Shown: in pieces, positions 20,129 through 62,841 of the stretch | How positions within the stretch are numbered: the stretch's first letter is position 1 | Layout: each line of letters begins with the position of its first letter | NCBI GenBank assembly: GCA_001972305.1 | Contig: BDDD01001763.1 | Coordinates: forward strand, 42,985 to 106,984 | Length of the DNA stretch: 64,000 nucleotides | Direction of reading: 5' to 3' | Origin: Cephalotus follicularis | Lineage: Eukaryota; Streptophyta; Magnoliopsida; Oxalidales; Cephalotaceae | The notes under the pieces: model-generated | Seen by the model: the letters and a program-made list of their open reading frames with translations, nothing else | Database searches by the model: none | Told to the model about the DNA's origin: nothing | Program-made: the position numbers and the translations under genes

Positions 20129-20139
20129 TCCCATTATAG

Positions 20140-28800: not shown

Positions 28801-29025
28801 AAGCTGAGATGCCCCGTTCCTGAGCACCCCCGCCCGAGGTCGACCGTGCCAGGTGGAAGCATTCCTCACCTGGATTGTAATAACTGCAATTTCAATTAAT
28901 GTATATTGTAACCAATGATGAATAAAATATGCATTTTTGAGCTTTTATGAAGGGTTATCTTTTGAATAGAATGAAATTTGGGAATAAATCCTTAGATGAA
29001 AGTAAAGAAATAAAATTCTTGTGCT

Positions 29026-29155
29026 AAACCGTCGACGCCTAACGTCGTACCATCGACGCTTTGAGCCCAAACACGTGTACAAAACGTGCAGTCGAGAGTT
29101 GGGTTATGACGCACAAACCGTCGACTCCTGAGATAAAACCGTCGACGCTTTGAAC
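29026..29155. repeat. CGTCGACGCTTT palindrome cluster 1 in solo LTR B
   Basis: CCGTCGACGCC, CCATCGACGCTTTG, CCGTCGACTCC and CCGTCGACGCTTTG occur at positions equivalent to 9880-10012. Motif positions are kept between the two solo LTRs although individual bases differ. Confidence 0.8.
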
Positions 29156-30064
29156 GGTGTCAGAACTGTGATACACGCCTGTTAGAACAGGACAGTGGTG
29201 CCAAATGGTTTCCATGCGAGCTAAGTGTCCAGCGACGTGTCAACCATGCAAGGAGACATTACCAGCTGTTGACAATGCCAGACTGAGGAGTCTTGCATGT
29301 TCTCTATCCCTCTTGCAACCTGCAAGCAGAGATTGGAAGGAGAGAAAGTGAATGGAATAAGGCATGTGAGAGAGAGAAAAGAGATGGCTGAGTTAATGTA
29401 ATCTGACGAGTTCTAAGGCTCCTAAGCCTCTATATCATCCATTAGAATAGAATGTGAGTGTTAGAAAACACTGAGGATAGAGGGGAGCTTGCTGGAGAAT
29501 TGTGGGAGCTTGCATGTTAAGGATTAGAGTGTTCAAAGAGACTTGGAAGCATGAATCTTCCTGGTAAGTCACTAATATGAATTCCTTAATGTTGTTATAG
29601 TTAATAGTTATGAAAACAAACTAAGATTAGGTATACATATCCATTGTTAACAAACAATTATGGAGTAAACCTGGAATTAGAGATTGGATTGGTATAATTG
29701 TAAAAGAGGATTTTGAAGGTTAGAAGCTAATGATAAGCTATGGTTCAAGTTATAAGTTGTTACCATGATTAGATAACAAAATAAACTTGCTGGTATTAAT
29801 GTATAAACCTGTAACATGCAATTGTTTAGGTTAATTTCTGCAAATTGGAAGATTGAGTTGGTGTGAAGAACATTGGACATAAAGAGAGAAATCAATTCAA
29901 TTTGATTTTGGGATAGAGATTGAGGTAGGGTTTTTGACATGTTTTTGACGATATAACATGTATAATGTGTAATGATGGTTGAGATTTGATTGCATGTTGA
30001 TTTGGACTGAGATTGCAATAAATTTTATGCATGCTCTGTTGGTTGTTGCTCCTGGAAATTCGCC

Positions 30065-30232
30065 AAAACGCTAGAAGAGCCGACGCTTAGGTTCAGGCAG
30101 TCGATGCTTTGGTGTGTAAACATCACACCTTAAGGCTTAGAATGTCGACGCTTTACACTTGATAGTGTGTCAAGTGTCAACACTTAATCTCAAACCGTCG
30201 ACGCTTAAATAGTAACTGTCGACGCTTTAGAA
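30065..30232. repeat. CGTCGACGCTTT palindrome cluster 2 in solo LTR B
   Basis: GCCGACGCTTAG, CAGTCGATGCTTTG, TGTCGACGCTTTA, CCGTCGACGCTTAA and TGTCGACGCTTTAG recur, equivalent to 10928-11093 in solo LTR A. Confidence 0.8.
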
Positions 30233-33200
30233 CAGAAATTGTGGAAGTGCTTAATTGATTGATTGAATTAGTTGTGGTTGTGAATATCCTTGAACTAATA
30301 ATGTTAAGCAATCTATGTATTGCTGCCATTACTGTTGATTAAAGTAGTTACTACTGTGTTATATAAATTTCAAGGATTATACCAACTTAATTCTTAAACA
30401 CTGAGAATGTTTTCAACAAACGGATTTCAGACAGAAAATCTTATTGTTATACAAATTGTTATTTTCCTCTCATAAAAGGCATTGTTATCATTTAGTTATC
30501 CAAGAAAACCACGTAATGAATTGTTATGTTTTCTAAAAATGAAAACTACCGCAATATTGCATATTATAGATATATGTAATATTGTCATTGAATTGATTGT
30601 CTATGTTATTGCCGTTAGTCAAGTGCTAGGAGACATCACTGGCTACGAGGTGGTCCTAGGTGCCAGGAGTTGGCTAGAGCTTCCACCACACTTATCTGCA
30701 ATACAGATCCTGACTGTTACCTGCCTGCTAATTGCAAGCAGAATTGACCTGATTATCATCTTCGGAGTGTAGGGTGATAGTTAGGCGGTGCACATTTGGT
30801 ACTAGGAGTTAGCGACATGTGACACCCAAACCACTGTATTGATTGATTGTACCCTTGTGCGGTATTCTTGAATTGTATTGTCTATGGCCACTTGGCATGA
30901 TTGCGTATATATATTGAAATACTTATATATATGTTTTAATTAAAAATAACTGTCATGCATGTTTACAAATATATATTCAATTATCATGCATTATTTTCCT
31001 ACTTAGCCGAGTGAGAACAAAGGCTAACCCCCTGCAATTTCATATTAAGTGAAGACGTTCGAGAAGTGCTGCTGAAGCTTTCGGAGAGCTTCTATTTTGT
31101 TAAGGTTGTTAATTTATGTTGTATTGTAACGAAAGTTCACACTTCGTTGTTGTTATGCTTTACGTTTCCTTATGTAAAAGGATAATTGTTGGTACTGTAT
31201 AAGCACGTAGTATGGGTTGCGTGTGGATGATTTTATAATACGACAATTGGAATGCTTCCGCTTATGTTAATGAATTTGTTTAAATGTTAAATCTGGATAA
31301 TTATTTATTTCTGATATCACCACATATGCTTGTCTCTAATGGATTGGAAATCGGGGTGTGAAATGGATCCCTAACCAAACCCAACAAACTCAAAGGCTAA
31401 CACTAAGGTCAGGGCAGGCGTTAAAAACAAACTGCCGAAGAGAACCGCGCTCCCCAAGCCAAACGCACTCAGGGCATAAAAACAAGAAATGCCCGAGAAG
31501 GAAGGAGGAATTTCGCATCTCCTCCAAGCCAAAAACGCTATGCGTGCCAGAAGAAACACGCGACAGCAAAGGAAAAAAAGAAGGAAGGGCCAAACACTAA
31601 ATAAACTTTACTTAAAAACCATTCCCAAAGCTCACCGTTTAACTAAAGGGACGCACTACCCAAACGCATCGTTCCATTAAAGGAAAACACTCAACAACCA
31701 CTGCCCAAACGCACCTTTCCATTAAAGGAACATGCCAGGGAAGGGAGCCAAGGCAAAGAACGCAACACTACGCCTTGTCTGGGGTCCCGGGCATCGAAAG
31801 TCAACACCACCCATTACACAAAAATGTAACACAAGCCAGGCCTGTGCCCCATCCTAAGACATGCCTTCCCCGGACAAGCCATCCTTGGGCATGTCCTCAT
31901 TGGATGACTTAGGACACGACCTCCTTGGGCATGACCCACACAAACAAGAATATGCCAAGGCACAAGAAAACGACAACACTTAACATAAGGCTAAGCCTGG
32001 GATCAATACAACGGCCCAGGGACAAACGCCAAGCATTGGGACCACTAACCGGGGTCCCCCAAATGATCAACTTACACTAAGGAGATAGAATCTCACCCTG
32101 GTCAGGTACCTAGGAGATCCACCAGGGCTTACCCACCAAAACATCTCCAGGGACCGAGCTGGTCCGAGGTCGAGAGGACGGGCAAAACTAAAGAAAACTG
32201 TCTACTCCCTCAAAACGCATACGGCATGCCCGAGTTCAACACCTAGGGTTGCCACCAGACTCTACCTTAGGGTCAACCAACCCGCGCTGCGAAGTCAACC
32301 TGAGGTTTGACCAACCTAACATAGCCACCCCTCCCCCGGCATCTCAGTAGAGGTGCCATGCACGAAAGGCCCGGGGAGAAACACTGAAGTTTCACTAAGG
32401 CCAGGGCTGGGGAGACCTGTTCCGCTACCCAGGGTCAAACAACCCCCGAAATCATACGTCGTCCCTACACACCCAAACACAAAGCATAAACAATGCCAGG
32501 GCTGGAAAAACAGCTCAAACAACAAGTATATAAAACAAGCGAATTATATACACGGTCCCGGGCAAAATGCCGTGGACCCACTACATCCAAGAACAACGTA
32601 TACATGTTTACAGCAAAAGGTTTTACAAGGTATAGACATTAACAAAATATATACAAAACCCCATGAATGTCCCCAATGCATGAAGGTGCCCGTGGCCCAG
32701 GAGCCATCCTAAGGTGCTGCGCCAGCGTCTACCTCTTTCAACAAGCTATGCTTAATGGATCTCAAGAACACTGCTGCCCCGCTATCCATACACACAAAAC
32801 TAAGAGGGGATTAGTCCAACTGACTAGTGAGTAAGATCAAGGAATATCCTAGGCAAACCTACTTCCACCGGGGTGCCAAGAGCCAAGGAAAACGTGCCGT
32901 GCCCCAACTGGGCCAAAGGACAACCCATACCCCCTGCTCAACAAAACAAGGCAGAGGTGAAAATATACAAGGATATCGATAACAAAGAAAAAGCCCAAGG
33001 AGACGTCAGAGCTACCAACTTAATGACAGGCCTCAAAGGAAATAAGATAAACAACAAGTTATATGCTAGAACATGCCAAGGATCTAAGGATCAACAAAAT
33101 ATCAACTCTAAGGATCAACAATTATCAAAGGGACTACTGGTACTGTATCAATCACAAGCACATTCCACACACGCACATGCACACATCAAACTCACACACT

Positions 33201-34465
33201 TCCATAGTCGGAACCACCTCGGCAGCATAAATAACAACTCCGTTGACATTCTATCAACGTGGTCATGAGCTACAGGATTGAACACATCCCTCATATACGC
33301 ATATAGATACCCACTTCCAGAGCATCGTATGAACATTGGTAGAAGGGCTATGCAAGCACTCCTCCCCCGGCAATCATACGTTAGACCTCACTCCATGAAC
33401 CTCGATCGAGGGGATACGCAAGCCCACCCCCGTCAGCAATCACAAGCTCAGTACTACACTAGGTGAACCTCGATCGAGAAGCTACCTCATCAGCAATCAC
33501 ATAGCGTTAGTATCATCCAAGGGGCCCGTGAATCACCGCTCAGCTCCACCCTTGACGAGATGACAGAGGAGAACATCGGCTCAGGGGTAAGTGTATCACC
33601 ACTTAGACCATCTCGTGCCTGCAATCTCACACATAATCAAGTAACTAGCACCCAGTAACCAGTACCCGAGAACAATAACACATGATATCGAATAAAGCAT
33701 GAATACTTAAACAGAAAGGGGAAACAACAAGTTCAACCCAGGCAAGGCAATATTAACATGCAATATCAATAAGATGACAGGAGAAGAAATCTTAGTCAAG
33801 GTAATATCATCGAAGGGTATATAAACAATAAACTCTCAGTTATCAATTGATAGAAAGAAGAACATCACACTCACTAGTATCAGTAGCTTCCTCATCTAGC
33901 TCCCTTGTTGTGCGGACTCCGTGCCTAGATCTTCCTCTACAAGACCAACACACAACAACTCTTAGCTACCAAGAACAATATCTCTGAAACTATGCATGAA
34001 CCACATACATCCATGAAAACCAAGGCGAAGCTCCTTCTCTGCCTCAAGATCGTGCCTGTACCAACCAAACAATGCACCAAAACGTACTGAGGAGAACACT
34101 CACCTGCTAGACGGGTGGAAGAAAGTCCCAACCTCAAACAGCGATCAAAGCTTCAGAAGAAAGACAAAGAAGAAAGAAGAAAATAAAAGCTCACTCACCC
34201 AAAAACTTCTTCTGGCGTGATAAGATGGATATGATATATGCCGAAGTCAACTATTAAGCTTCTTAAGCAAGCTTTGCACATATCCCAACACCATCTAACA
34301 ACTCTTATCTCTTAACCATACAACATTGGGCCTCCACCAAGCCCAAGGCAAACAAACCTTATCCAAGAAGAGCCCAAGCCAACCACAACGAAGGAGAAAA
34401 AAAAAATTTCCCCCTAAGCCCAAACATAAATGTACCCAAAATTAAATGCGGGCCGTTACAAAATT

Positions 34466-36834: not shown

Positions 36835-37703
36835 TGTTGATGCAGAAATCCTTCCCTCAACAGTACCCCACGTGTAAGAGCTTGATTTGTTTAGGAAAAT
36901 GCTACGATAATGCTCCGAGGTGAAGGTAGAAGGATGTGGATGTTTTCCCTGCACAGAAGAGCAAACAAGTTGAAGGTCCAGGAGGAATTTCTCCCGGGGA
37001 CACTCCGACGCTCAAGTTAGACCTTTGCACAGAGAAAACTAGGTTCTTTTGAGAATGAAAATGGCTGACCTTTGTTCTGACTGTTGAACTAGTATTTATA
37101 GTGTAGGAGTGTAACTATCTGAGCGTGCAATGTGGAGGTGATAGCTGTCCTCTAAGGAAATACCGAGGATATCGGGATTTCCCTTATCTCCACCTGATTT
37201 GTCGCTACTTTCCTTGTAGGTAGTTTACTATACCTCATCTTCCTTATTTGGAAGAGATGAATCCCTGAAAAGTAGGCTGCTTTTGTAGCCCTGTCCCACT
37301 GAGGGAGAGGAGGGATAGATTCTCTTGGTATTTATCCACTTCAAGGTCTTCAAGTTTCATGGCTTTTCCTAGGGCTGGCGCCTGAACCAGTAGGTCCTTT
37401 ACCAAACTGTCGAGGAAGGTGTCTGCTATAGTGCAGTTGAGGAGGAAGACCTTTGGCTTGGTCCTCAGCACCAATGTTGGAAAAGAGGTCCTCCGCCCTT
37501 ATGCCGAGGAGGGTGGATTCTAAAACACCACTAGTGGGGAGTTCCTCGACACTGGTGCCGAGGATGATGTCTCTGTCTACTTCTCCTTCCAGGTCTTGAT
37601 AACCTTCCTCTGACCAGTATCCGACTTCAAGACCCTTGGACACTTGGCTATGTCTGCAGAGGACACGTGTCGTTCTTGGTATAATTTAATTTTTCCCATA
37701 TCA
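36835..37703 (-). repeat. 3' LTR of Tat-type element I
   Basis: On the plus strand it begins TGTTGATGCAGAAATCC and ends TTTCCCATATCA. It matches the LTRs at 45850, 56727 and 58874. On the minus strand a TATA box (CTATAAATAC) lies at about 37093-37102. Confidence 0.8.
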
Positions 37704-38315
37704 TATGCCCCCCTAGTCCTTCTTTTCTGACCGTGGTCAGAGGAGGACGAACAGAGTTGAGAGTATTGACTCGTGCCGAACTCCTGGAAACTTTACGTAG
37801 GCTTTTCCATATGTGAAAGAACTGAGGCCCGATAGTGTGGCTTTTAGGGATCCTCTGGCACAAAACCAATCTCGTCTTAGCAGAGGATTGAAGCTAGCCT
37901 CTGTCTGGATCCATCTCTGCTAACGGGGCTCGTGTCACGAGCCAAAATCATTTGCATTTAAATAGCGTATTGAACACGACTTACACGTGGCATAAATAAG
38001 CGTTTCCTGCCTCTGTCTCTTCGTCTCCCGCGTCTGATTTGACGATTCACTCCTCAACCGTTGGATCTGTGCGAGGTGGAGGGCTAGGATCCAAGATATG
38101 GGCCTATAAAAGGATATCTACCTCACTAAGCAAACCTTTTACTCATTCAAACTCCCTTCTTTGCATTGTCGTTGTGAGCTCTTGTGATTTACAGTGCCCT
38201 GAAACTTCATCTCCCTGCCATTCTTTCATCAAGGTCTTTGGTAAGTTCCCAATCTTTTTGTTGCTATAAGTTGAATCTAAGAATTCTCTAGCTTCTTCTT
38301 TTTTCGTCTGAATAG
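37704..38315 (+). promoter_or_regulatory. Polypurine tract, palindrome and promoter region of accessory gene I
   Basis: Next to the LTR the minus strand reads AAGGACTAGGGGGGCATA, the polypurine tract. A near-palindrome CTGACC-GT-GGTCAG lies at 37727-37740. Further on, the conserved stretch CAACCGTTGGATCTGTG and a TATA box TATAAAAGG (38105-38113) precede the start codon of the antisense gene by about 200 bp. The same arrangement recurs upstream of the other two accessory genes. Confidence 0.65.
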
Positions 38316-40735
38316 ATGGCTAGAACTAAACAGACTGCTAGGCCTTCTCCTCCCTTAGAAGTCAAACCCCTGGACATGGTGGTTCCCACCGTCGAAAGTC
38401 CCCTTTCCTCTGAAGGCAGCCTGGGGGCTGTGGTGGGTGACCCTGCTGTTCCCATCACCGAGGCTGACACCCTTGCCCCAGATTGCTTTGGTGTCAGTAC
38501 TCTTTCTCACGATGAGGTGCTAGAACTTTCTTGCAAATGCAATTTCCCTGCTGAGTTGAGGTTTAGTCTCCCCTCGGATCCTCAGCTGGTCACCGAGAGT
38601 ATGGAGGGCCTCTTCGCTGTCTTTGAAGGCGCTCTCTCTCATGGTTTGAGGGTCCCGGTGCCCTCTTTTGCTCTCTCGGTCTTGGAGACATTTTTATCTC
38701 CACCATTCTCTTCTCCAACCTCAATCTTGGAGCTTCATCATAGGCTTCTTAGTTAGGTGTCTGGAGTCCGAGGTGGCTGCGACAGTAGGACTATTCAAAG
38801 AATTCCATGTCATCTCGTCTTCACCAGGAAAGCGTGGCTATTTCTTCAAGTCCCACCCTGGTGTGAAGAAACTTCTTTTGAACCCTACTAAATCCATCAA
38901 AAACTGGAGGAGGAGATACTTCCTCATAAAAAATTTCGAGGGGTTCGCCCCCCCTGCATGGTGTGACTCCATGGAAACTACACACCTTAACAGGAGATCC
39001 CCTCTGACATCGACAGAGAACGTGGAACTTGGTAAACGTTTGCGCTTGGAGCCCGATGAGGTGAACTCTACTGTGGTTGAGGATCGTCTGCTCTGAGCCA
39101 GGCTATGTGTAGTTCCCATCCAAGGATCATACTCGGCAGACGTCGAGGACACCTCAGGGGGGTAGGGGATCCCCAGATAGATCCATGCCCTAAGAAATTG
39201 GGGAAAACTGTATAAAGCTCTCGTCTCCTCCGGTTTCTTGTCTTCGCATTTCTTCTGTTGTCTTACTATTTGTTATCATATCCTTGACCTTCCTACTTCT
39301 TTTTCGTGTAGCAATGGCTTCTCGGCGAGGATTCGACGCTCTCTTCGGTGCTACCAAGATCACCAAACCCTCCTCTGCCGAAGCAAACAAGCAGAAGGCT
39401 GCCGCAGAGGCAGCCAAGCAAAAGGAAAAAGATGCTGCTGAGGGGGCCAGGCAGAGGGCAAAGGCCACCGCCAAGGGGGCCAAGCAAATGAAGAAGGCTG
39501 CAGCGGCAGCCAAGGAGAAGGGAGCCAAGCGTCCTGCTGGAGGGCGTTCCTCTGGTGCTCCTCCTCAACCCCCAAGCAAAAAGGGGAAGTATGCGTCCGA
39601 GGCCAAGGTGGAGTCTGCTCTCGGCAGGACGTCTAACAACCCCATCATCCTGCCTCCTCCTCGGTATGTGAAGAAAATGATCGAAGAGTTGGAGGGGGTT
39701 GGGAATGGGTCCTCCAGCTTGGATACCCTCGGGGTGCCATTCGCTCTTAGCTCTCTGTGCCTCTTCCCTGACGAGCTGAAGGAGAGGAAGGACTGGACCA
39801 ACAAGGACTTAATCCATAACTCCCTGCGGAGCCATTTTGAGGTAAAGGGAGATCCTCTTCTTGTGTGCTTTACATTCTTATGTGCTTTCCGTTCTCATTC
39901 CTGCGTCTTCTTTGCAGGCTCTAAATGATCATCACCTCTTGATTGAGAATTTCTCGATCATCTTGGAGAGGTATGACAAGGCAAGGGAGGAGCTGATGGT
40001 AGAGATGGAGACGTCTCGCATGGCCAAGGCTCAGCTTGAGGAAGTCTTTAAGGCCCAAGAGTCAGCCACGGAGGAGAGGAACAAAGCTTTCTTGGAGAGG
40101 GACCAACTGATGAAGGATCTCTCCAAGGTCGGCGACCAGTGGTGCTGCAGAGGAAGCACGAAGACTCCGTCAAGAAGCAGGAGGAGAAGTGGGCTAAGGC
40201 GGTGGAGGATGCCCTGACGGAATTTAAGTCCTCGGACAAATTCCAGAGCTTGATAGAGGCCTCCGTGGAGGATTACAAAGCCTCAGAAGCCTTTGTTGAC
40301 GAGGTCTTCAAGGAATTCGTCGAGTACTACCATCGGGGGTTCTATACTTGCAGGAACTGGGTTAAGGCTCTTCATCCCGAGGTCCCCTTGGAGGAGGTTA
40401 CCTACTGCTCGGCTACCAAGGCTTTCGACTACTATCCCGGCGATTATGAAGCCGAGGAGGTGAAGGCTAAAGAAGCCTTGGAAGGAAGAGCTGGCCTAGG
40501 GGCCGTGGAAGAGGAAGGGGAAATCCTGCCTGCTCCTGAAGCCGTTGTCAGCCAAGGAAACGAGGCTGGAAGAGATGGGTCAGATACTGCAGCCGCTCCT
40601 CTGCCTGATCCTGCGTTGGCCTTGGCTTCATTGGCTCTCTCTTCGGATCTCGTCTCCCCTAAATCTCCTCAGACCAGGCCTTTTCTTCCTCCACCTCCAG
40701 AGGATGACTCTTCACTTAATGCTCCTGCCGCTTAG
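38316..40735 (+). pseudogene. Tat accessory gene I (antisense), PF04195-type domain and coiled coil; H3-tail-like N-terminus
   Basis: It reads opposite to gag. Exon 1 starts MARTKQTARPSPPLEVK; the first nine residues equal the histone H3 N-terminus. Next comes a domain with AVFEGALSHGLRVPVPSFAL, matching the 'putative gypsy type transposon' family (PF04195). Predicted introns lie at 39210-39311 and 39842-39917 with GT and AG ends. Exon 2 is Ala/Lys-rich with a basic patch (PPSKKGKY). Exon 3 has a coiled coil and the conserved RGFYTCRNWVKALHPEVPLEEVTY. The copy has a few breaks. A poly(A) signal AATAAA lies at 40815-40820. Function is unknown. An antisense accessory gene is known in the related maize element Grande. 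A DNA-transposase role is not supported despite the family's name. Confidence 0.7.
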
Positions 40736-41628
40736 TTTTATAGGCTAGCTTTTTCCTTTTGGCCTTGTAATAGTTTTCTAGCCTTTCTTGTACTTGTAAT
40801 CTTTTCAGTTTATAAATAAAGAAGGACCCTTCTGCATTCTCTGACTTTGTCTTTGATTTTTTACATTGTTTACTTGAGCTCTGCATGTATGAATGTGTTA
40901 ACAATTCCCTTAGGAATTCTAACTTTACCCAAGTTACTGACTTCTTTGAAGAAGCGAACACTTAAGCTTAACAGTCCTTGTAGGACACTTTATTTCAAAA
41001 GTGCTTAAGTAACCGTAACTTAGTCTTCAAGAATTTTGTTGTACTCATAGACTAGGTTCTTGGTCTGGTCGGACAAATTCCTATGGGTTTGCCGAGGAGA
41101 GTATCGACTGACCTATTAGGCTTTAGGACAGGTCGGCTGAGCTTGCAGTCCACATGGGGACACTTGTATTAAAGTGCTTAGTCCGACGAGCTTGATCGTT
41201 GCGAGTTCCCATGGATTCTCCTTTCAAGTCACAATTTTAGGTCTGGTTGGACAAGTTCCCATGGTATTGCCAATTAGAGTTTGCTCCCTGGGAGTCTTAG
41301 TGCTTCCTTGGAAGCCTTTGGACGATCCTCGGAAGGAGTCCTTTGCATTTATGGTTTTAGATGCTCCTCGGCAGGAGTCTCTCCTCGGAAGGAATTTTTT
41401 TTTTTGGGTGCTCCTAGGAAGGAGGCTTTTAGATGCTCATCGGAAGGAGTTTTTTGGGGTGCTCCTCGGAAGGAGGCTTTTAGGAGGTCGAACACACTTG
41501 AAGTAAAAACTGAGGGAGTTGATTTATGGCTGTTCAGAGGTTTGAGGACATGAACATAGGACCTCCGGTCCCTTGCAAACTTGAAACTATAATATGGAAC
41601 ACAAGTTTTTGAAAAAAAATTCCTTTCA
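40736..41628. other. Convergent spacer of Tat element I, first copy, with hairpin array
   Basis: No gene is seen. Conserved phrases (GCTTGATCGTTGCGAGTTC and similar) are shared with the spacers at 42200-43215, 49894-51030 and 62842-64000. Between about 41283 and 41480 short inverted repeats of the type CTCCT-CGGA-AGGAG recur six to eight times at 20-30 bp spacing. The INT-proximal end of the spacer is cut where it meets the second accessory-gene scrap. Confidence 0.65.
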
Positions 41629-42199: not shown

Positions 42200-43230
42200 A
42201 ATAGCTTTTTCTTTGTTTTTCCTTGTATTGTTTGAAATGTAATCCTCTTTTGATCAATGAAAACATATTTTTGCACCTTGGGTGTCTGTTGTTTTTTGCT
42301 TTGAATGTTCAGGCTTTAACTAATACTCACAACTTCCTAAAGATAATTGAACGTAAGTAATAGAACTTGAACTCCTATTCAGCACCTTTGTTCCCCTTGA
42401 GGACTTTAACTTAGTTTATTTTACAGACTTTATGTTTTGGCCTTACAATTTTCAGACATAATGGCCTAAGCTTTGTAGTCCCCTTAGGACACCATATTTC
42501 AAAGGCGCTTAGACAAAAAGACTTAGTCTTTACGAGTTCTGCTGTGTTCGTAGACCAAGTTTCAAGTCTGCCCGAGCAAGTTCTTATGGGTTTGCCGAGC
42601 AGGGTCTTGTCTGGTCCGTTATATTCTAGACCAGGTCACCTAAGCTTGCAGTCCACGTAGGGACACTTATTTCAAAGTACTCAGTCCAACAAACTTAATC
42701 GTTGCGAGTTCTCATGGATTCGCCTCTCAAGACACGATGTGGTTATGGTCAGGCATTGAAATGCTGACCAGTGTTTGCTCCCTTGGGAGTCTTATTGCTC
42801 CCTTGGGAGTCTTATTGCTTCCTTGGAAGTCTTTTTGTATGCATGGTCTTGGGTGCTCCTCGGGAGGAGTCTTAGGCGCTCCACGTGGAGAGGCTTAGGT
42901 GCTCCTTGTGGGGAGGCTTTGGTGCTCCTCGTGCGGAGGTTTTTGGTGTTCTTTGTGGGGAGGCTTTAGGTGCTTCTCTTGGGGAGTCTTTAGGTGCTCC
43001 TAGTGGAGAGGCTTTTGTTGAATTGAGACCTTGGTCTGTTTGGAATACTCCCTTGGGAGCATGGTTGGTCATGTTTATGTTAAAGCTTCTTGATTTAGGG
43101 GGTTGATCGGCGGCTGTTCAGAGGTTTAAGGACATGAACATTGGGCCTCTGGTCCCTTGCAAACTTGGAACTATGAAATTTTTCGGACATTTTTTGACGA
43201 AAAATTTAGCTTTATCGATATTTTGAATTT
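42200..43230. other. Convergent spacer of Tat element I, second copy, with diversified hairpin array
   Basis: The same spacer phrases recur (GTTGCGAGTTCTCATGG). From about 42778 to 43060 an array of about ten short inverted repeats is visible, for example CTCCTCGGGAGGAG, CTCCACGTGGAG, CTCCTTGTGGGGAG and CTCCTCGTGCGGAG. The arms stay paired while the loop differs. No gene is supported here. Confidence 0.65.
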
Positions 43231-43512: not shown

Positions 43513-45265
43513 TTATCTGTGCTCCCCTCTTTCCTGAGGAGTGTCTCTGTCCACATATTTCCTGAGATGACCTCTGCGAATCAAGTTTTCAATATGATTC
43601 TTTAACTGTCTGCATTCCTCTGTATCGTGCCCGTGGTCACGATGGTACCGACAGAATTTGTCTACGCCTCTCTTCTCTGCTGAGGACCTCATTGGCACAG
43701 GCCATTGGATAGGGACCTTTTCCTTCTCCACTACAAGTATCTTGGTACGTGTCTCCAGGAGAGGGGCAAAGTTGTTGTATGCAGGGATGGGCGCCCCTCC
43801 CCTTGGTGTCTTCTCTCTCCTAGAAAGTTTGTGTCTGAGGTCATCCTTGTGGAGCTCAGACCTCTCCTTCCTCTTCTCTTTCTCGCCAGGAGCATTTTGT
43901 GAATGCTCCCCTTTCTCCACCTGATGGCCCAACTAGGATGTTTTTTTCTTTCTTGGCCGCCATCCCCTCATCGGCATTGATGCACCTCTTTGTTCTTTTC
44001 AGCAGGTCCACCATATCCACCGCGGGCTTTTTCAACAGAGAGAAAGTAAATGGGGAGTCGTTCTTCAGCCCACTGTTTAGAGCTGCTAGAGCGAATGATG
44101 GCTCCAAGTCTTTCCCTATAAGAGACTCCTTGTTGAATCTGGTGAGGTAATCTCTTAGTGACTCATCTCTTGCCTATACCACATTAATCAAATGGGTTGG
44201 CTTCCTCCTCTGCGTGGTGCTGTTGAGGATTTTGGTGACGAACAGTTGCACAAACTGCTCGAAATTCTCCACCGAACCCTTCACCAGGGTGAAATACCAT
44301 GACTGGGTAGCTCCAGTCAATATTGTCGGGAATCCTCTGCAGAGTGTTGCGTCTGAGGCCTGGTGCACTAACAAGGTTTGGATGTAGGTGCACACATGTT
44401 GGATGGGATAAATGGACCCGTTATTCTGCTGAAGACTCAGGAATCGGAATCCACTAGGGATACGCTCCTTCATGATCTCGGGTGTGAAGGGGTCGGCACT
44501 AATGTCGCGCACTTCGGACAGATACCCCTTTGGCAGTTCGGCTCGTTGGAGCCTCTTCTCCATCTCTGCAAGCCTTCTATTCATTGCTTGCTCAACATCT
44601 TCTATGTTCCTAGTCCTGCTAGAAACATGTGAGTGCCCAGCCAAGGAGGCTGGACATGCTGACCTATTCCCAAGCACCGTCTCAGGCCTGTACGATGTGT
44701 GAGAATGTACCTGGTGGTCCTCGGCACCCGCTGGTTGATTCTCCTCCATTGGTTCATGCTCAGGGTGCCTGGGCCGAGGTTCATCGTTGTGATCTCTGGC
44801 AGTCGATGATTCTGTCCTCTGAGATGTATTAATCTCAGCTCTCCTCCTAAGGGGTGTATCAACCCCTGACCTCCTTGGGGATTGGATGCCCCTCCTCGGT
44901 GGGTTTCACTTTGGTGCTACTCCCAGAGATGTTTAAATCTCTGATCGCCTTGGAGGGTGTCTTGCCCCCCTTGGCGGGTTTCGCCTAGCCCCTTGGGGCT
45001 GTTGAATCTCCAGAATCGGCCTGCTCGGGCCAGATCGTCCTCGGCTAACTGGTTGGGCAGGTCTGACCTATTCACGGTTGGCTATATTAGTTGCCAACAG
45101 GTTGGTGAGGAGGTCCATTCCTTGGAGCAGCTGAGTGAATTGCTCCCCAGTAATGGGAGCTTCCTCAGCAGTGGCAGCAACTTGACTGGTCGAAGTTGGG
45201 TTGTTTCCAGTAGCAGTCTGGTTGCCATCAAGGGCGGAAGGGTTGTTATTCTTTCTCGGAGGCAT
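43513..45265 (-). pseudogene. Tat-type gag, element I
   Basis: On the minus strand a start at 45265 gives MPPRKNNNPSALDGNQ. The capsid part includes GFRFLSLQQNNGSIYPIQHV, and the basic 3' part carries a C-x2-H-type motif CRYHRDHGHDTEECRQLKNH, the degenerate zinc-binding signature of Tat gag. It would have formed the particle shell and bound element RNA. Several breaks are visible. It matches the gag at 54807-56683 at moderate identity, and this copy comes from a different subfamily. Confidence 0.75.
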
Positions 45266-45309: not shown

Positions 45310-45801
45310 ATGCAAAAATCATTTCCTCCACAGTATCCTACGTGGAGGACTTTGATTTGTTAAGGAAACGCTAAGATATGCTCGAGAAGAAGGTTTAATG
45401 GTGATTATAGTCCCTGCACAAGTGAACAAACGGGTCACAGGTCTAGGATGATGAACTCTCGGGGACACTCCGATGCTTAAGTTAGACACTGCACAGAGAA
45501 TTCAAGGTTATTTAGAATGTAAAAATGGCTGACCCGGTTAATGTCGTTGATTCTAGTATTTATAGTCCTGGAATGTAATTGCTAAGCATAGATTTCGGAG
45601 TTAATGTGTATCCCCTAAGGAAATGTCCGAGGATCACAGACATTTCCCTGATATCCACCAGATTCTGTGCTAACTGGCTATTATGCGCTATGTTGAGAGT
45701 TAGTAATGTCTGCCCACGTGTCAGTGGCTTCAGTGGACGCCTGTCGTCATGACCTGAGGACACGTGGGCCTATTCTTTTTAGCAGAAATTTTACCGTATC
45801 A
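45310..45801 (-). repeat. 5' LTR of Tat-type element I (short form)
   Basis: It shares CAGTATCCTACGTGGAGGAC, CGGGGACACTCCGATGCT and the ends with the other Tat LTRs but is only 492 bp. It lacks the segment equivalent to most of the GAGGAGGTCCTCGG-rich half. A minus-strand TATA box lies at about 45557-45566. Confidence 0.7.
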
Positions 45802-45849
45802 CCTATAAACATGTTTATGAAAAAGAAGAATATTCAATATATTTAAAAT

Positions 45850-46815
45850 TGTTGATACAGAAATCTTTCTCTCAACAGTATCCTACGTGGAGGACTTTAA
45901 TTTTTTAAGAGAAACGCTCGCAATGGATGCCTGGGAGGAAGACGTCGATCTCGGACACCTGCACAAAGTGACAAACTGGTGGAAGGTCCAGGAGGTTGTT
46001 CTCCCGGGGACACTCCGACGCTCAAGTTAGACAATGTGCAGAGATTATAAGGTTCTTTGAAGTGTAAAAATGGCTGACCTTTGTTAAGGCTGTTGAACTG
46101 GTATTTATAGTGCTGCATTGTAACCGTTAGAGCCTGAAATGTGGAGGTGGTAACTGTCCCCTAAGGAAATGCCGAGGATCTCAGGCATATCCCTTGATCT
46201 CCGCCAAATACTTCGTCTCTTTCCTTGTTGGTAGTTTGCTATGACTCTGCTTCCTTATTTGGAGAAGGACGAATCCTAGGAAATCAGGCGGATTTAATGC
46301 CCTTATCCCATAAACCAAGTGGTGGTCTTCTGCTACAAGACTGCCGAGGGAATGTGCTATGATACTGCTGCTGAGGTCATGGGCCTCTTGCTATCCCCTT
46401 TCGCTCCTCAGTGGTGTACGCTTATGACGCCAAGTCCTCATTCATCCGAGGATGAAGTCTTTTGGATAAGGCCGAGGAGGAGGTCCTCGACATCTGTGCA
46501 GTGGGGTAAGTTCTCTGTTTCGTGTCCAATAGATACTTTGGGCAGAGGAGGTCCTCGGTCGTGGTGCCCCGAAGAAGGTCCTCTGACCTATAGCCTAAGT
46601 AAGCTCCTCGGCGGGGAAGGTCCTCGGCGATACTGTCCGGTAGTATGCTCTTGGTCAAACTAGCTCTTCTCGGCCCTAAGTCCGAGGAGGATGCCCACTG
46701 CCATGTAAGCGTTCCTCGGCAGGGCCTTTGGCGAGCCTCTGGCCCCTTCTGACAACTGGACGAACCTTAGGAGGACACGTGGTCTTCTTAAAATAAACAG
46801 ATTTTTACCCTATCA
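45850..46815 (-). repeat. 3' LTR of Tat-type element II
   Basis: On the plus strand it begins TGTTGATACAGAAATC and ends TTTTTACCCTATCA. A minus-strand TATA box CTATAAATAC lies at 46102-46110. The distal half is rich in GAGGAGGTCCTCGG-like inverted repeats. Confidence 0.9.
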
Positions 46816-47445
46816 TATGCCCCCTGGTCCTTCTTCTCTGACCTTGGTCAGAGGAGGAGGATCAGAGTTGAGAGCCGTGGCTCGGGCAAGACTCCTCTGC
46901 AGTGCTTCCTTCTTGCTTCTCCTTGTACAAATAGGCGGAGGCTTAGAGTGTTTCTTTTGACCATCCTCTGACATAAAACATAGCTGCCTGAACCGAGGAT
47001 TAAAACCTGCCCTTTGGTCTGTCACTCATTTTATTATCCGGCCTCGTGTTACGAGCTGTAACGATTAGCATTTAAGTTGCGTACTGAATACGCTTCACAC
47101 GTGGCATGCACTGAGCGCTTCCCGCCTCTGTCTTTTCGTTTCTCGCGTCTGTCTCTTCGTTTCCTGCGTCTGATTTGACGGTCCGTTTCCCAGCCGTTGG
47201 ATCTGTGTGAGGTGGAGGGCTAGGATCCGAGATTGGGGGCTATAAAAGGTTTTGTTCTTCTCAAGGCAAACCTTTCGCCTCTTGATCCTTCAATACTTAC
47301 ATCGTCGTTGAGAGCTTGCCAATTCTGTTGTGCCTTCAGAACCCTATTCCATCACTTCAAATCAAGGTCCTTGGTAAGTTTCTGTCATCTCCCTGCCTTT
47401 CCAGATCGTTCTTGGATTTTTTCTTTTCTTCTTCATCTCAAGCTC
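46816..47445 (+). promoter_or_regulatory. Polypurine tract, palindrome and promoter of accessory gene II
   Basis: The minus strand reads AAGGACCAGGGGGCATA at the LTR border. A perfect inverted repeat CTCTGACC-TT-GGTCAGAG lies at 46836-46853. The stretch CAGCCGTTGGATCTGTG and a TATA box TATAAAAGG at 47241-47249 lie about 200 bp before the start codon at 47446. Conservation with 37704-38315 and 59759-60374 supports a real promoter for the antisense gene. Confidence 0.7.
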
Positions 47446-48346
47446 ATGGCTAGTCAAGAACAATCCAGTGGGTCTTCTTCTACTTCTCCCCTATCAGTTG
47501 AGCCTTTGGCCATGGTGGTTCCTACCGCCGAGAGGCCACTTGGTGTTGATGGTACCCTGGGGGCTGCGGTGGGTGACCCTGCTGCACCCATTGCAGGGGC
47601 TAACCCTCTTCCTGATGATTGTGTCTTCGATGTAAGCACCCTCAGTCGTGCTGAGGTAAAAAAACTCTCTGAGAGGTATAATTTTCCTCGTGGGCTGACC
47701 TACTGCATTCCCTCAGATCCTCGGATGGTTACCATGCACAGAGAGGGTCTCTTTGTCATCTTCAAAGGGGCTCTCTCTCATGGCCTGAGGGTCCCAATTC
47801 CCTCCTTTGCCATCTCTATCTTAGTCCACTTTAGTCTCAATCCCTCACTTCTTCAACCTCAATCCTGGAGCTTCATGATTGGCTTCCTTGTCAAGTGCAT
47901 AGAGTCTGAGGTGGACGCGACAGTGAACCTTTTCAAAGAGTTCCACGTCCTCTCGGCCACCCCTAAAACAAACGGGTATTTTTTCAAGTCTCGTTCTGGG
48001 GTGAAGAAACTTCTCCTCAACCCTACCAAGTCCATAAAATATTGGAGGAAGAGGTACTTTTTAATAAAGGACTTCGAAGGGTTTACTCCCTCTCCCTGGT
48101 GCAATTCCCTGGACACAAAATCTTTGAACAGGAGGTCTCGTCTGACCTCGGCTGAGAAGTTCAGCCTTAATAAACTCTTGGCCCTTGAGCCAGAGGATGT
48201 GAACTCCACCGTTAGTGAGGATCTGATCCAGGCTGCAATGAGTGTGGTCCTTGGGCAAGGGTCCCGTTCGGACATAGCCGAGATGAATATCTCAGAGGGA
48301 GAGGGTGATGAAGATAGTCCTCTGCTCCCAATGTCGGAGGAAAATT

Positions 48347-48440
48347 GTATACGCCTACGTCTCCTCCATTCCTTCTGTTTGTGTTATTATTCTTCTTGCA
48401 TTTTTGGATCTCTGACCCTAACTTCCATGTCTTCTTCTAG
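48347..48440 (+). other. Predicted intron 1 of accessory gene II
   Basis: GTATACG donor, pyrimidine-rich 3' part and CTTCTTCTAG acceptor; 94 bp. One leftover base from exon 1 plus two from exon 2 make a codon, so the frame is kept. The counterparts are 102 bp in gene I and 99 bp in gene III. Only the intron boundary and the ATG-containing exon start are strongly conserved. Confidence 0.65.
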
Positions 48441-48967
48441 CTATGGCTCCTAGCCGTGATTTCTCTGCCATTATGAAGGCTACCGACAAGAGGAAGGCCC
48501 CCGCAGCCGGTGGACCAAAGCCCAAGGGCAAGACATCCGTAGCTGAGGGGTCAAGGCCACAGGCCAAGACTCCTCCACCCGTTCGGATTCCAGCCGCCAC
48601 CGCCGAGAAGAGGAAGGAAGCTGCCAAGAGGCCAGTAGACGTGACCTCCCCTGGTGATGAGCACATTCCTCTGACGAAGAGGAGCAGGAAAGGGAAGGCT
48701 GTTGATGGGACCAAGGTAGGGAGGGTAGCCGAGGACGTCGCTGCCCTCGGATCGAGCTCGCAGGATCCAATCCTCATACCCCCAACTCGGGAGGCCGAGG
48801 ACTTGCTGAATGAGTTTGAGGACATGGACTGCCACAAGTTGCACCTGAATGCTCCTGGGGTCCCTCAAGCAGTTAGTCGTCTGGTCTTCTTCCCTTTGGA
48901 AATGGAGGCAAGGGAGAAATGGTCCAACGAGGAGTTGGTAACCCATTGTCTGCGGAGCAACGTGAGA

Positions 48968-49050
48968 GTAAGTGATCTCTTCCTTGGTTGCCTTGATTTT
49001 TCCTGTATCTTGGTTCTTCATAATTACTAACATTTATGCTCCTCTGACAG
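48968..49050 (+). other. Predicted intron 2 of accessory gene II
   Basis: GTAAGTGATC donor, TACTAAC branch-like site near 49026 and CTCTGACAG acceptor; 83 bp, phase 0. The same intron is found at 39842-39917 and 61912-61995 with matching flanking codons. Confidence 0.8.
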
Positions 49051-49893
49051 GCTTTGAACAATACTCAACTGCTTGTGGACAACTTCTCTGCAGTAGTGGC
49101 CAGGGACAGGGAGCTGAGGTCGAGCATGGCCTCGTTAGAGGAAACTGCCCGCTCGGCTCAAGCTCAACTGAACAAGGTTCTCAAAGTTCAGGAGTCTTAA
49201 GTTGAGGAGAAGAAACAAGCGGTTGAGGACTTGGAGGAGGAGAGGGCTGACAGGAAGGAGTTGGAGGCCGAGCTGGAACAAGCCAAGAAGAAAATCCTTG
49301 ATCTGGGAGCAAAGCTTGATCGCCAGCAGAGGAAAGATAAGGAGCAGCTGAGGAAGGAACAACACAAGGCAGTAGAAGACTTCAAGAACTCAGAGGAGTT
49401 CAAGGAGCTGATGAGGTCCTCCGTGGAGGAATTCAAGAGCTCGAACGAGTTCGAGGAGGCGGTATTCCAGGAAGCGGCCGAGTACTTCCGCCGGGGCTTC
49501 TATGCCTGCAGGAATTGGGTCTCTTCTCTGCGTCCTGAGTTCTCACTGGATGAAGTAGTGTACGGTCCCTCTGCCAATGCATTTGACTTTTACCCAGAGG
49601 GAATTGATGCAATGGAGGAGAAGCTCTGTCAGGCGTTGGAGGAAGGAGTCTCGTCTGCCATGGTGGATGAGTTGTCAACTCCGATTTCACCAGACGTGGT
49701 TGTTCTTGCTGCGGATCCTGCTTTGACCTTGGACCCTGCCTTGGACCCCCATGCTATTCCTTGCTCTTCAGCTCTAGTGGACCCCTTTGCTAGACTTGGG
49801 GATCCTCCTCTGCCTTCTGTTGAGGCCTTCTTCACTCCTCCGCCCCAATATGAAGATCCTCAGCCCGAGCAAGAAGATCCTCCTCAGCCCTAG

Positions 49894-51030: not shown

Positions 51031-52263
51031 TTATTGATAGTACTTCCTCAGATGCTCGACATTCCAAGCTCTGGCAATCTCCCTACCCCCCAAAGTTTCA
51101 AGTTTGAATGTTCCTGGGCGGAGGACCCTTTTGATTTTGTAAGGCCCTTCCCAGGCAGGAGCTAGCTTTCCTTTGGTACCGGTTGGATCCACCACGGCTG
51201 AGTTGCGTAGGACTAGATCTCCTTGTCTCAGTGGTCTAGGGCTTACCCTTTTGTTGTAGTAGCGGCTTACTCTCTGCTGGTAGGCTACGACTCTGATCGC
51301 TGCCTTATCTCTGAGCTCTTACACTAGGTCGAGGATGCATCTGAGACCTTCTTCATTATTGTCTTCAGTGAAGTGCACAACTCTTGGAGATTGTATTCCA
51401 ACCTCCACTGGTATCATAGCCTCCACTCCGAAACAAAGACTGTATGGGGATTCACCAGTTGTGGTCTGAGGAGTGGTTCTATATGCCCATAGTATGCTTG
51501 GTAGCTCCTCGGTCCATCTTCCTTTACTGTCCTCCAAGCTCTTCTTCAAGCCCGAGATGATTTCTCTGTTGATCACCTCGGCTTGACCATTGCTTTAGTG
51601 GTAGGCTACTGATGCGAGCCTATGCTCTATCCTCCATTCTCTGCAAAAGTCACGGAAGGCTTGGCAATCGAACTGCTTGCCATTGTCGGTGATAATTGTC
51701 CTTGGAACTCTGAATCTGCAGATGTTTGACTTCCATACAAAGCTCTCCGTGTTCTTCTCTGTAATTGTGGCCAAAGGTTCTGCTTCCACCCACTTGGTAA
51801 AGTAGTCCACTGCTACAATGAGAAACTTCCTCTGACCTGAAGCCATGGGTAATGGTCCAACGAAGTCCATTCCCCATTGTGCAAAGGGCCACAGGGCCGT
51901 GATAGACGTCAGAGGTTGAGAAGGTCTTCTGCTTATGTTCGCGTTCCTCTGACATTTATCACACTTCCTTACCATGTTTATAGCATCTTGATGCATAGTT
52001 GGCCAGTAGTAGCCTTTCCTTAACAATTTGTGAGACAATGTCCTGCCCCTAGTGTGGTTGCCACAAATTCCTTCATGTACCTTCCTCAGAGCATAATCGT
52101 CCTCTAAGGGGTTCAAGCACCTCAGCCAAGGAAAAGAGAAATTTTTTTTGTAGAGGATCCCATCTCGGAATTGGAATCTATTTGCTCTGTAGACCAGCTT
52201 CCTCGCCTCCACGGGATCCTCGGGCAAGGTCCCATCCCTTAACCAATTGACAAAGGGAGTCAT
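51031..52263 (-). pseudogene. Tat integrase, element II
   Basis: The zinc-binding domain (KVHEGICGNHTRGRTLSHKL then CDKCQRNA) is followed by the catalytic core with WGMDFVGPLP, TDNGKQFDCQAF and the NREI region carrying the third acidic residue. The C-terminal part has GDLVLRNSAVV, GKLAPAWEGPYKIKRV and a final AWNVEHLRKYYQ, ending at 51031. In living relatives it inserts the element DNA. There is no chromodomain, as usual for Tat. A few breaks are visible. Confidence 0.85.
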
Positions 52264-54150
52264 TCAGTTCGGCTCCTGTGGCATATCTATGTTCATCACG
52301 CCTACTTCAGAGATGGTTGGTCTATCCAGATAGTCTACTAGCACGGTTTGATTCTTCTCCAACTCCTTTACCGTTGCTAGCTTTGACAATTGGTCTGCTC
52401 GGATATTCTCTGCTCTGGGCACTTTCACAATCTTCAACACTTCGAAGGCTGACTTCATGCCCTGAAAATGGGATAAGTATTTTATCATAAGGTCTTCTCT
52501 GGCCTCATACTCCCCATTTGCCAAACCAACCACCAACTGAGAATCACTGGAGACTTCAATCCTCTGCACCTCCAAGTGCTTTGCAATTGTCAATCCAGCT
52601 ATTAAATCTTCCCACTCAGCTTCATTATTGGTAGCTTTAAACTTGAACCTGAGAGCATACTCCAATGTCCAACCATCTGGACTTGTCAATACTAATCCTG
52701 CCCCACTGCCAGTGAGGCACGAGGATCCATCCACTGACAACTTCCACATTCCCTTCTCGCTCTCGGAAGGGTTCTCCTCCATACACTCCATAGGTGTATT
52801 ATCTCCAACAAAGTCGGTCAGTACCTGTGATTTGATTGCTGGTCTGACTTCGAACTTCACATCATACTCGCCTAGTTCGACTGACCACTTGATTAGCCTG
52901 CCCGAGGTGTCAGGTTTTGCGAGGACTTGTTTAAGCGGTTTGTCACTCAGAACCTTGATTGTATGGGCTTGAAAATATGGCCTCAACTTTCTGGCTGAGA
53001 TGATCAAAGCATAAGCAAACTTCTCCACCTCTGGATACCTCCCCTCGGCATCGTTCAAAGCCTTGCTCACGTAGTACACTGGTCTTTGAACTTTTTCCTC
53101 TTTTCTGACCAGCACCGCACTCACTGCGCCCGAGGTGGCCGCAAGGTACAAATATAAGTCTTCCCCATCATTAGGTTTCGAGATCAGAGGTGGGGAAGCC
53201 AGGTATTCCTTCAACCTGTCGAAGGCCACTTGACAGTCATCTGACCAAGAGAATCCCTTGGGATCTCTAAGTATTTTGAAGAAAGGGAGGCACTTCTCTG
53301 CTGACTTCGACATAAACCTGCTCAGGGCCGCGATCTTCCCATTTAACCTCTGGACGTCCCTGATGGTTTGAGGTGGCCTCATGCTTTGAATTGCCAAGAT
53401 CTTCTCTGGGTTGGCCTCTATCCCTCTGCTAGAGACCATGAATCCAAGGAACTTTCCCGAGGTGACCCCAAATGTGCACTTGGATGGATTGAGCTTCATA
53501 TTATATCTTCTCAACACCCCAAACGTCTCCTCCAAGTCCTTTACGTGGGGGCTCCTGGCTGGGGTTTTAACGAGCATATCGTCTATGTACACCTCCATAT
53601 TCTTCCCAATCTGTGGCTCAAAAATTTTGTTCACCAGGCGCTGGTAGGTGGCCCCTGCATTCTTCAAGCCAAAAGGCATAACTTTTTAGCAGTACATTCC
53701 TCGGTCCGTTATGAACGCTGTCTTGTTCTCATCAGGCTTGTACATGGGGATTTGATTATGTCCCGAGTAAGCATCCAAGAAGCTTAATATTCTGTAACCC
53801 GAGGTTGCGTCTACCAGCTGGTCTATTTTTGAGAGAGGAAAGTGATCCTTTGGGCAAGCTTTGATGAGATCTGTAAAGTCTATGCACGTCCTGCATTTGC
53901 CATTGGCTTTTTTGACCAGCACTGGATTTTCTAGCCAGTCTGAGTAGTGCACTTCTCTTATGAAACCTGCCTGCAACAGCCTGTTCACCTCCTCTGCTAT
54001 TGCCTGCTGCCTCTCTGGGGCGAAGTTCCTCTTCTTTTGTCTGGTCGGCGGTCTGGCTGGGTCCACGCTTAGCTTGTGAACCATTACGTCTGGGCTGATC
54101 CCAGGGACCTCCTCTGCCGACCATGCAAAAACGTCTTTATTATCTCAGAG
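52264..54150 (-). pseudogene. Tat reverse transcriptase with two RNase H domains, element II
   Basis: Landmarks in order on the minus strand are ANGKCRTCIDFTDL, FPLSKIDQLVDATSGY, FLDAYSGHNQIPM, MPFGLKNAGATYQRLVNKIF, the catalytic YIDDMLVK and FLGFMVSSRGIEANPEKI. A first RNase H follows (DLYLYLAATSGAVSAVLVR to YSVELGEYDVKF-like). A second RNase H at about 52330-52760 shows SVDGSSC, NNEAEWEDLIAGL, SSDSQLVVGLANG and ADQLSKLAT, the plant-type domain gained by Tat elements. The copy is broken in a small number of places. Confidence 0.88.
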
Positions 54151-54186
54151 GAATGTTATTAATTCACCCTTCTCCGCCTCTCCAAG

Positions 54187-60374: not shown

Positions 60375-62841
60375 ATGGCTAGTCAAGAACTGTCCACTGG
60401 GTCTTCTTCTTCTTCTTCTCCCCTATCTGTTGAGCCCTTGGCCATGGTGGTTCCCCCCGCTGAAAGGCCGGTTGGTGTGGAAGGTAGCCTAGGTGCTGTG
60501 GTGGGTGACCCTGATGCACCCACTGCAGAGGCCAATCCTCTGCCTGAGGATTGTGTCTTTGGTTTGAGTAAACTCAGCCAAGCCGAGGTCAAAAGGCTTA
60601 CTAGAAAGTACAATTTCCCTCGTGGGTTGACCTTCAATCTTCCTAAGGATCCTTGGGTAGTCACCGAGAGCCGAGAAGGCCTCTTTGTGGTCTTCGAAGG
60701 GGCCCTTTCCCATGGTCTGAGGGTCCCTGTCCCCTCCTTTGCCATCTCGATTCTTCTTAGCTTTAATCTTCATCCTTCTCTTCTTCAACCTCAGTCTTGG
60801 GGCTTCATGATAGGTTTCCTAGTTAAGTGCATAGAGTCCAAGGTTGAAGCGACTGTGAATCTCTTCAAGGAGTTTCACGTCATCTCGGCCACCCCCAAAA
60901 CAATCGGGTATTTTTTTCAAGTCCCGTTCTGGGGTGAAAAAGCTTCTTCTCAACCCTACCCAATCCATAAAAAACTGGAGGAAGAACTACTTTTTAATAA
61001 AGGACTTCGAGGGGTTTATTCCCTCTCCTTGGTGCACGTCCTAGGACGTTAAATCTCTGAACAGAAAATCTCGCCTGTCCTCGGCTGAGAAGATAGATCT
61101 CAGCAAGCTCCTGGCCCTTGAGCCAGAGGATGTTAACTCCACCATAACTGAGGATCGCCTGGTCCAGGCAGGACTAAGTGTGGTCCTTGGACGAGAATCC
61201 TCCTTGGACGGATCTGAGGAGGAAGAATCAGAGGGAGAGGGAGAGCAAAATAATCCTCTACCCCCGAGGTCGGAACGAACTTGTACAAAATCTTTGTCTT
61301 CTCTGTCTCTTCTATTAATACTGTTCTTACTAACCCTTGCATTTTTTGATCTCTGACTCTGACTCTCTTGTCTTCTTTCAGCAATGGCTCCTCGCCGAGA
61401 TCTTTCTTCCATCATTAAGGCCACTGATCAGAGGAAGACCCCTGCACCTACTGGGTCAAAGTCTAAGGGAAAGGCCCCTGTGACCGAGGTGCCAAGAACA
61501 CAGACCAAGGTTCCTCCTCCTCCTTCTGCTAGGGTGCCAGTGGCTACGACCGAGAAGAGGAGGGAGACGAGCAAGAGGCCGGCAGACAAGACCCCCTCCA
61601 CTGAACATGCTCCTCTGATGAAGAGGAGCAAAAAAGGTAAAACTGTGGATGGCACCGAGAAGGTGCGGGAGGTCGAGGACGTTGCTGCCCTCGGATTAAG
61701 CTCCCAGGATCCCATAATCATTCCCCAATCTCGGGGGGTGAACGAGCTGCTCAACGAGTTTGAGGAAATGGACTGCCACCACTTAAACCTGAATGGTCCT
61801 GGAGTTCCTCAAGCACTTAGCCGGCTGGGCTTCTTTCCCCAGGAGATGGAGGCAAGGCAGAGGTGGTCCAACGAACAGTTGGTGACCAACTGTCTGAAGA
61901 GCCACTTCAGGGTAAATGATCTTTTCCTTAACTGTCTTGACTTCTCTTGTACTTCAGTTCTCCATAATGTCTAACATATTTTGCTTCTCTGACAGTCCCT
62001 GAACAATACTCAACTGCTGGTGGACAACTTCTCGGCAGTGATAGCCAGGGACAGAGAGCTGAGGTCGAGCATGGCCACATTGGAAGAAACTGCACGCTCA
62101 GCCCAAGCTCAGCTGAACGATGTTCTTAAGGTTCAGGAGTCCTTGGCTGAGGAGAAGAAGCAGGCGGTTGAGGACTTTGAGGAGATGAAGGCCGAGAAGG
62201 AGAGGCTGGAGGCCAAGCTGAAACGGGCCGAGGATAGAAATGATGATCTGGTGGTCAAGCTTGAGAGGCAGCAGAGGAAAGAGAAGGAGCAGCTGAGGAA
62301 GGAACAACATCAGGACGTGGCCGACTTCAAGAACTCGGAGGAGTTCAAGGAGTTGCTGAGGTCCTCCGTGGAGGAATTCAAGGGCTCAGAGGAGTTTGAT
62401 GAAGCAGTCTTCTTGGATGCGGCCGAGTACTTTCATCGGGGCTTCTATGCTTGCAGGAATTGGGTCGCTTCTCTGAAGCCCGAGTTTCCTCTGGATGAAG
62501 TGGTGTATTGTCACTCTGCCAATGCATTTGACTTCTACCCAGAGGGGATTGATGCGGTGGAGGACCGGGTCAGTCAGAGGTTGGCGTAAGAGGCCTCGAC
62601 TGCCCCCGTGGGTGAGATGCCAACTCCTACTTCTCCAGAAGTGGTTGTCCTCGCCGCGGATCCAGCTGCTGCCACCTCGGAAGCTGCATTAGACTCCTCT
62701 GCTCTTCATTCTTCCCGTCCTCCAGAAGACATTTTTTCCGGTGTTGGAGATCCTCCTCTACCCTCCACTGAAGCCTTCTTTCCTCCTGCACCTCTCGAGA
62801 ATCTTCCGTCAGAGCACGATGATGATGCTCCTCAGACTTAG
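60375..62841 (+). pseudogene. Tat accessory gene III (antisense), three exons
   Basis: Exon 1 starts MASQELSTGSSSSSSPLSVE and has VVFEGALSHGLRVPVPSFAI and PQSWGFMIGFLVKCIESKVE of the PF04195 pattern. Predicted introns lie at 61283-61381 and 61912-61995. Exon 2 starts MAPRRDLSSIIKATDQRK and has the basic KRSKKGK. Exon 3 starts with SLNNTQLLVDNFS, has a long coiled coil (EEKKQAVEDFEEMKAEKERL), then HRGFYACRNWVASLKPEF and an acidic/proline tail. The gene is closest to copy II. A few breaks are visible. Intron places and phases are the same in all three copies, evidence that the splicing is real. A poly(A)-like AATGAA lies near 62902. Confidence 0.72.

Follow-up and report, generated by a model that had tools for sequence, protein, structure and literature searches.

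An accessory open reading frame (ORF) in the genome of Cephalotus follicularis, carried by a Retand-like Ty3/gypsy element, opens with the N-terminal tail of histone H3. The initial annotation had confined this feature to a single subfamily; it was instead found in at least three related element groups of the same genome, and as judged from these copies the H3-like match is neither a chance event nor a one-subfamily trait. The motif may be a short sequence selected to mimic the unmodified N-terminus of H3 in the region of Lys4, that is, some kind of H3-tail mimicry, and this reading is given a probability of about one half.

Sequence reading and a six-frame scan of the window (the whole stretch of DNA analysed, 64,000 nucleotides) located the H3-like N-terminus at 38316..38348 on the + strand. 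The ATG at 38316–38318, preceded by a TAG codon, is followed by GCT AGA ACT AAA CAG ACT GCT AGG CCT TCT. The encoded ARTKQTARPS is identical to residues 1–8 and 10 of H3, the tail of which reads ARTKQTARKS, with a proline at residue 9, as first described. When the window was scanned in six frames against MARTKQTARKS with a listing threshold of 5, this site scored 10 out of 11 and all other listed sites scored 5. Under an order-0 model, an ORF start would read ARTKQT by chance with a probability of 2.2e-8 and ARTKQTAR with one of 8.6e-11. Consistent with the original description of the remainder of the protein as not histone, the histone fold (PF00125) was absent from the five window proteins scanned with Pfam. 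Candidate H3-like N-terminal peptides are ARTKQTARPSPP and ARTKQTKRLVRG, with ASQEQSSGSSS as the MASQE-type negative counterpart.

In element I, the accessory ORF runs in its first frame for 146 codons to a stop (38316..38753, + strand). This stretch is homologous to PF04195-bearing proteins, with 63% identity to the Cephalotus protein model P0003 over 107 residues; the 146-residue fragment gave no Pfam match of its own. The same protein continues in another frame at 38725..39095 (+ strand), where it is 70% identical to the element II protein. Given this homologous continuation in a different frame after 146 codons, the copy of element I is frameshifted. A TATAAAA at 38105..38111 (+ strand), 211 nt 5' of the ATG, could serve as the promoter of the antisense accessory gene, and a TATA-type box is present upstream in 39 of 40 near copies, window copy included. 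A candidate 5' leader intron (GTAAGT...AG) would occupy 38241..38315 (+ strand) and abut the ATG; the presumed leader is free of ATG in 26 of the 40 near copies and contains one in 14. The long terminal repeat (LTR) beside the accessory ORF, which is the 3' LTR in the gag-pol direction, lies on the − strand with approximate ends at 36835..37690, and a gag-like ORF at the far end of the element (44174..44749, − strand) scored 21.5 bits for PF03732, below the cut-off of 24.1. The LTR-like ends (36835–37690 and 45310–45842) are 58% identical over the aligned part, and either is 63% identical to that of element II. Its own ends being no closer to each other than to element II, element I could have a chimeric origin or be what is left of a nested insertion. 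A second antisense ORF on the + strand, 39314–39928 and on to ~40.5 kb, starts with MASRRGFDALFG, includes a lysine/alanine-rich stretch resembling histone H1 and gave no Pfam match (39314–39928); a sequence resembling an intron runs from GTAAAG (39842) to TTTGCAG (end at 39917), after which a coiled-coil-like part follows. Short tandem repeats of ~20–26 bases flank accessory regions at 41401–41484, 42775–43017 and 50666–50732.

Two related elements in the window carry accessory ORFs without the motif, and both have the MASQE start initially ascribed to them: MASQEQSSG in element II (47446..48453, + strand) and MASQELSTG in element III (60375..61052, + strand). Both proteins contain PF04195 (Transposase_28), at 38.9 and 34.6 bits respectively against a cut-off of 26.2. 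Element II (45847–57694) is bounded by LTRs that are 96.3% identical, and a candidate 5-base target repeat, AAAAT, was read by eye at its outer ends. Its reverse transcriptase, RNase H and integrase ORFs (51595..53679) and its gag are on the − strand, so its accessory ORF is antisense to them. The predicted structure of the element II protein was poor (mean pLDDT 36.1) and was left out of the argument. Other direct repeat pairs, 906–4565 and 17515–34407, with 89–97% identity, are probably LTR pairs of further elements.

In Retand elements, the accessory ORF is antisense and located beside the 3' LTR (PMC11963269, PMC7264820, PMC6317226). Among Retand clusters with recent activity, 97% contain antisense TRP28 ORFs (PMC11963269). 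The Cephalotus elements resemble these aORF-3R (TRP28/PF04195) ORFs in the PF04195 domain of elements II and III, in a position antisense to gag-pol and between pol and the 3' LTR, which is clear for element II, and in the tandem repeats close to the accessory region. They differ in the motif itself, as no histone-like N-terminus is mentioned for Retand accessory ORFs and the word ‘histone’ occurs 0 times in PMC11963269 and PMC7264820.

Near copies of element I were obtained from the Cephalotus assembly (1.577 Gb, 9746 contigs) using a 445-base query. The best 40 of 3627 candidates all reach the start region, missing at most the first two bases, and consist of the window copy and 39 other loci, in the choice of which the N-terminus was no criterion. 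Had close relatives lacked the motif, the initial annotation would have regarded it as a chance match; instead, ARTKQTAR is exact in 28 of the 39, together with an intact ATG in 23, and Lys4 is present in all 39. Thr6 is likewise present in 39, Ala1 and Thr3 in 38 each, Gln5 in 37 (the remaining two being stops) and Ala7 in 33, and residue 9 is proline in 32, serine in six and alanine in one. The reading frame is open over all 314 fetched codons in eight of the 39 copies, one of which has no ATG.

The proposed check for an excess of synonymous over nonsynonymous change came out in favour of constraint on the peptide. Across the 40 near copies, codons 2–9 gave a pN of 0.039 and a pS of 0.246 (ratio 0.157), versus 0.055 and 0.116 (ratio 0.472) for codons 10–122, with ratios of 0.75 in codons 21–55 and 0.63 in codons 56–75. 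In every one of 100 bootstraps over copies, the motif had a lower ratio than the remaining codons. A ratio as low was reached by 10 of 106 eight-codon windows and a pN as low by 32 of 106, so the pN of the motif is unexceptional. Among variants present in at least three copies, four synonymous and one nonsynonymous fall in the motif and 26 and 25 outside it, a difference that is not significant (Fisher p 0.36); among rarer variants, with stops scored as nonsynonymous, the corresponding numbers are three and nine in the motif and 49 and 128 outside.

Searched across the genome, MARTKQT gave 2551 matches (1278 + 1273), compared with 0 + 2 for the control; genome pattern counts here are of places, mostly without individual inspection, and any host H3 genes are counted among them. 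The degenerate pattern MARTKQTA[RS] gave 548 matches (285 + 263) and its reversed control 0. The first 30 of these 548 places include no H3 and continue either as group A (PPLEVEP...) or as group B, a different sequence, with residue 9 being valine in eight, proline in six, glutamine, alanine and serine in five each and threonine in one. Groups A and B are 47–51% identical overall and have the motif in common, and the group B locus L048 has few further residues in common beyond it. A PF04195 family search that was blind to the N-terminus (best 150 of 9886 candidates) led to group D, the core of which is 56–61% identical to that of group B. Of 75 further PF04195 loci picked for an open frame of at least 230 codons, 20 were read, and 19 of these belong to group D. 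Seventeen of the 20 are readable at the motif; L108 belongs to another family, L112 carries an indel there and L118 lacks coverage of it. MARTKQT[KR]R is exact in 14 of the 17 and altered by a single missense change in three; Lys4 and Thr6 are present in 17, Thr3 in 16 and Ala1 in 15. The 30 best PF04195 loci (L078–L107), distant copies with core identities of 26–40%, are often interrupted and their starts unplaceable; they showed no motif and were counted neither way. In a core-selected search near group B (best 150 of 13360), MARTKQTA[RS] is exact in five of 35 loci on contigs to C365. On contigs to C268, five exact matches and two MARTKRT make seven of 30 group-B-like loci; the other 23, which weigh against mimicry, match neither by pattern, their N-termini being unread, and as many copies contain stops, decay may account for part of these 23. 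An N-terminus that varies freely had been named as a sign of chance; ARTKQT is instead kept in diverged groups with other synonymous codons.

It is possible, if on the unlikely side, that the N-terminus is kept for a different job, such as serving as a basic tail in nuclear localisation or nucleic-acid binding, and that its identity to H3 is fortuitous. Lysine or arginine is frequently the replacement at residues 5 and 7, as in the 1210 genome places (584 + 626) with MARTKQT[KR]R and the 593 with MARTKRT, and DNA binding is predicted for the TRP28 domain (PMC11963269). Against such a tail, the uncharged residues Ala1, Thr3 and Thr6 are held (38, 38 and 39 of 39 near copies; 15, 16 and 17 of 17 group D copies), and the chance of ARTKQT at a start is the very low value given above. 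Furthermore, the charge-preserving change at Lys4 belongs to the rarest variant counted: in an otherwise unchanged MARTKQT, K4R/S occurs at eight places and T3A at 23, compared with the 593 of Q5R, which may be a single event inherited across many copies. From these counts, residues 5, 7 and 9 vary between lineages and residues 3 and 4 seldom do. Residues 1–4, 6 and 8 are held across lineages, and residue 9 is never lysine in the copies read.

A tree of 27 cores built without the N-terminus and rooted at the midpoint, in which the row L065 is labelled B and belongs by sequence to group A, placed groups B and D apart from all others (100/99). Elements II and III, of the MASQE type, form one group with P0001–P0004 (100/99) within the A side (98/96), the order of which is unresolved. 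As the motif is found on both sides of the tree and nowhere in the MASQE group, the simplest history is an ancestral motif that was lost in the latter. Thus groups A, B and D probably inherited the motif from a common ancestor and the MASQE group lost it, although independent gains in the three groups may be the alternative history. The persistence of the MASQE group without the motif counts against mimicry. Alternatively, the 5' end of a host H3 gene could have been taken up by an ancestor and simply inherited since, with little function. A match of eight identical residues located at the same chain end would fit such an event, and gene capture by LTR retrotransposons has been described (PMC7264820). 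However, the DNA alignment of the three window elements is continuous through the start with no inserted foreign block, the identity to H3 ends at residue 8 or 10, and persistence despite synonymous turnover is unexpected without function. Capture with little function is therefore improbable, whereas capture as the origin of the motif is compatible with mimicry.

A constraint acting on the DNA or RNA, such as a splice site, promoter or other signal of which the peptide is a by-product, was considered given the upstream sequence, in which GTAAGT is found in 38 of 40 near copies and AG immediately before the ATG in 33. This is very improbable, as the pS of the motif (0.246) is reached by none of the 106 eight-codon windows and 100 of the 2551 MARTKQT places contain 45 distinct 20-mers, in which each of the four alanine and each of the four threonine codons is used. 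A chance match in a single decayed copy, as the frameshift of the window copy might suggest, has a negligible probability in view of the 39 near copies that align across the motif and the 2551 places versus two in the control.

Mimicry of H3 would depend on exposure of the end. An initiator methionine that precedes alanine is removed, leaving a free A-R-T-K end as in H3. In groups A and B, within the 50 codons upstream, no in-frame ATG follows the last stop in eight of nine copies checked. L048 (group B) has an in-frame ATG 10 codons upstream of the motif and group D has one 14 codons upstream of MARTKQT, so that the motif may be internal in L048 and group D. In group D (L109–L127), a serine-rich in-frame extension, MTTSSSSSSLSGNL, precedes MARTKQT.

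Two protein searches, in one of which the best 7999 candidates were scored, returned 10 Cephalotus proteins, with identities of up to 78% to the element II protein over 93% of its length. P0001, P0002, P0003 and P0010 begin at an internal MVVP methionine and the other six models further in; starting at internal methionines, the ten models are uninformative on the motif, which is thus easy to overlook in the public Cephalotus gene models found. The element I protein gave no match as a query in a protein search, a null result that is uninformative because the search also failed to return P0003, at 63% identity over 107 residues. The motif pattern had 0 matches in prokaryotic genome contigs and none in phages. 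Within a mainly open-access literature on histone mimicry in retrotransposons and plants, no report of this H3-like N-terminus was found.

The mimicry reading can be set beside known cases. Histone mimics of viruses, among them influenza NS1, are likewise short histone-tail-like segments within non-histone proteins of a parasite genome. The known examples are either shorter or located internally or at the C-terminus, whereas the present motif is N-terminal, up to eight residues long and spread over many transposon copies. In several structures of H3 readers the side chain of Gln5 faces solvent, and the tolerance of the motif at residue 5 fits this arrangement. In mammals, residues 1–3 of H3, residues 1–3 of PAF15 and the VRT motif of DPPA3 compete for one site on the PHD of UHRF1 (PMC11187062). 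The likeness lies in an A/V-R-T end that vies with H3 for a PHD finger; PAF15 and DPPA3 are, however, mammalian host proteins, and the present case is a plant transposon protein with exact H3 residues 1–8 and a putative ligand role. Among plant proteins, H3K4me0 is the preferred ligand of the ZMP PHD, SHH1 recognises H3K9me2 combined with unmethylated H3K4, and both proteins act on Pol IV (PMC9699677). The PHD of VIM1, the plant counterpart of UHRF1, is reported not to bind H3 (PMC12474915), which counts against mimicry.

From the conservation seen in the sequences we infer a target and an outcome. Removal of the methionine would bare the free A-R-T-K end of an accessory protein presumed to reside in the nucleus; nuclear localisation is reported for Grande gene23, a comparable accessory protein (PMC7264820). 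The exposed end could then compete with, or recruit, host proteins that bind the H3 tail. Readers of unmethylated H3K4 in transposon silencing are suggested as the target only tentatively, and are somewhat unlikely; the likeliest partners would be type-1 PHD proteins (ZMP, NERD) or SHH1, followed by H3K4 methyltransferases or demethylases. In this way the element would blunt or redirect its own silencing. The full scheme, an ancestral and selected free H3 end (A1-R2-T3-K4-x-T6-x-R8) on a nuclear protein that would titrate H3K4me0 readers against silencing, is quite possible while falling short of probable.

To our knowledge, no histone-tail mimic has previously been described in a transposable element, and this would be the first. 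If the mimicry is real, a conserved mimic of the H3K4 site would provide the PF04195 accessory protein with a concrete and testable function, and the pattern of tolerance, with positions 5, 7 and 9 free and 1–4, 6 and 8 held, would predict the class of reader that is touched. Histone mimicry would thereby be extended from viruses to transposable elements.
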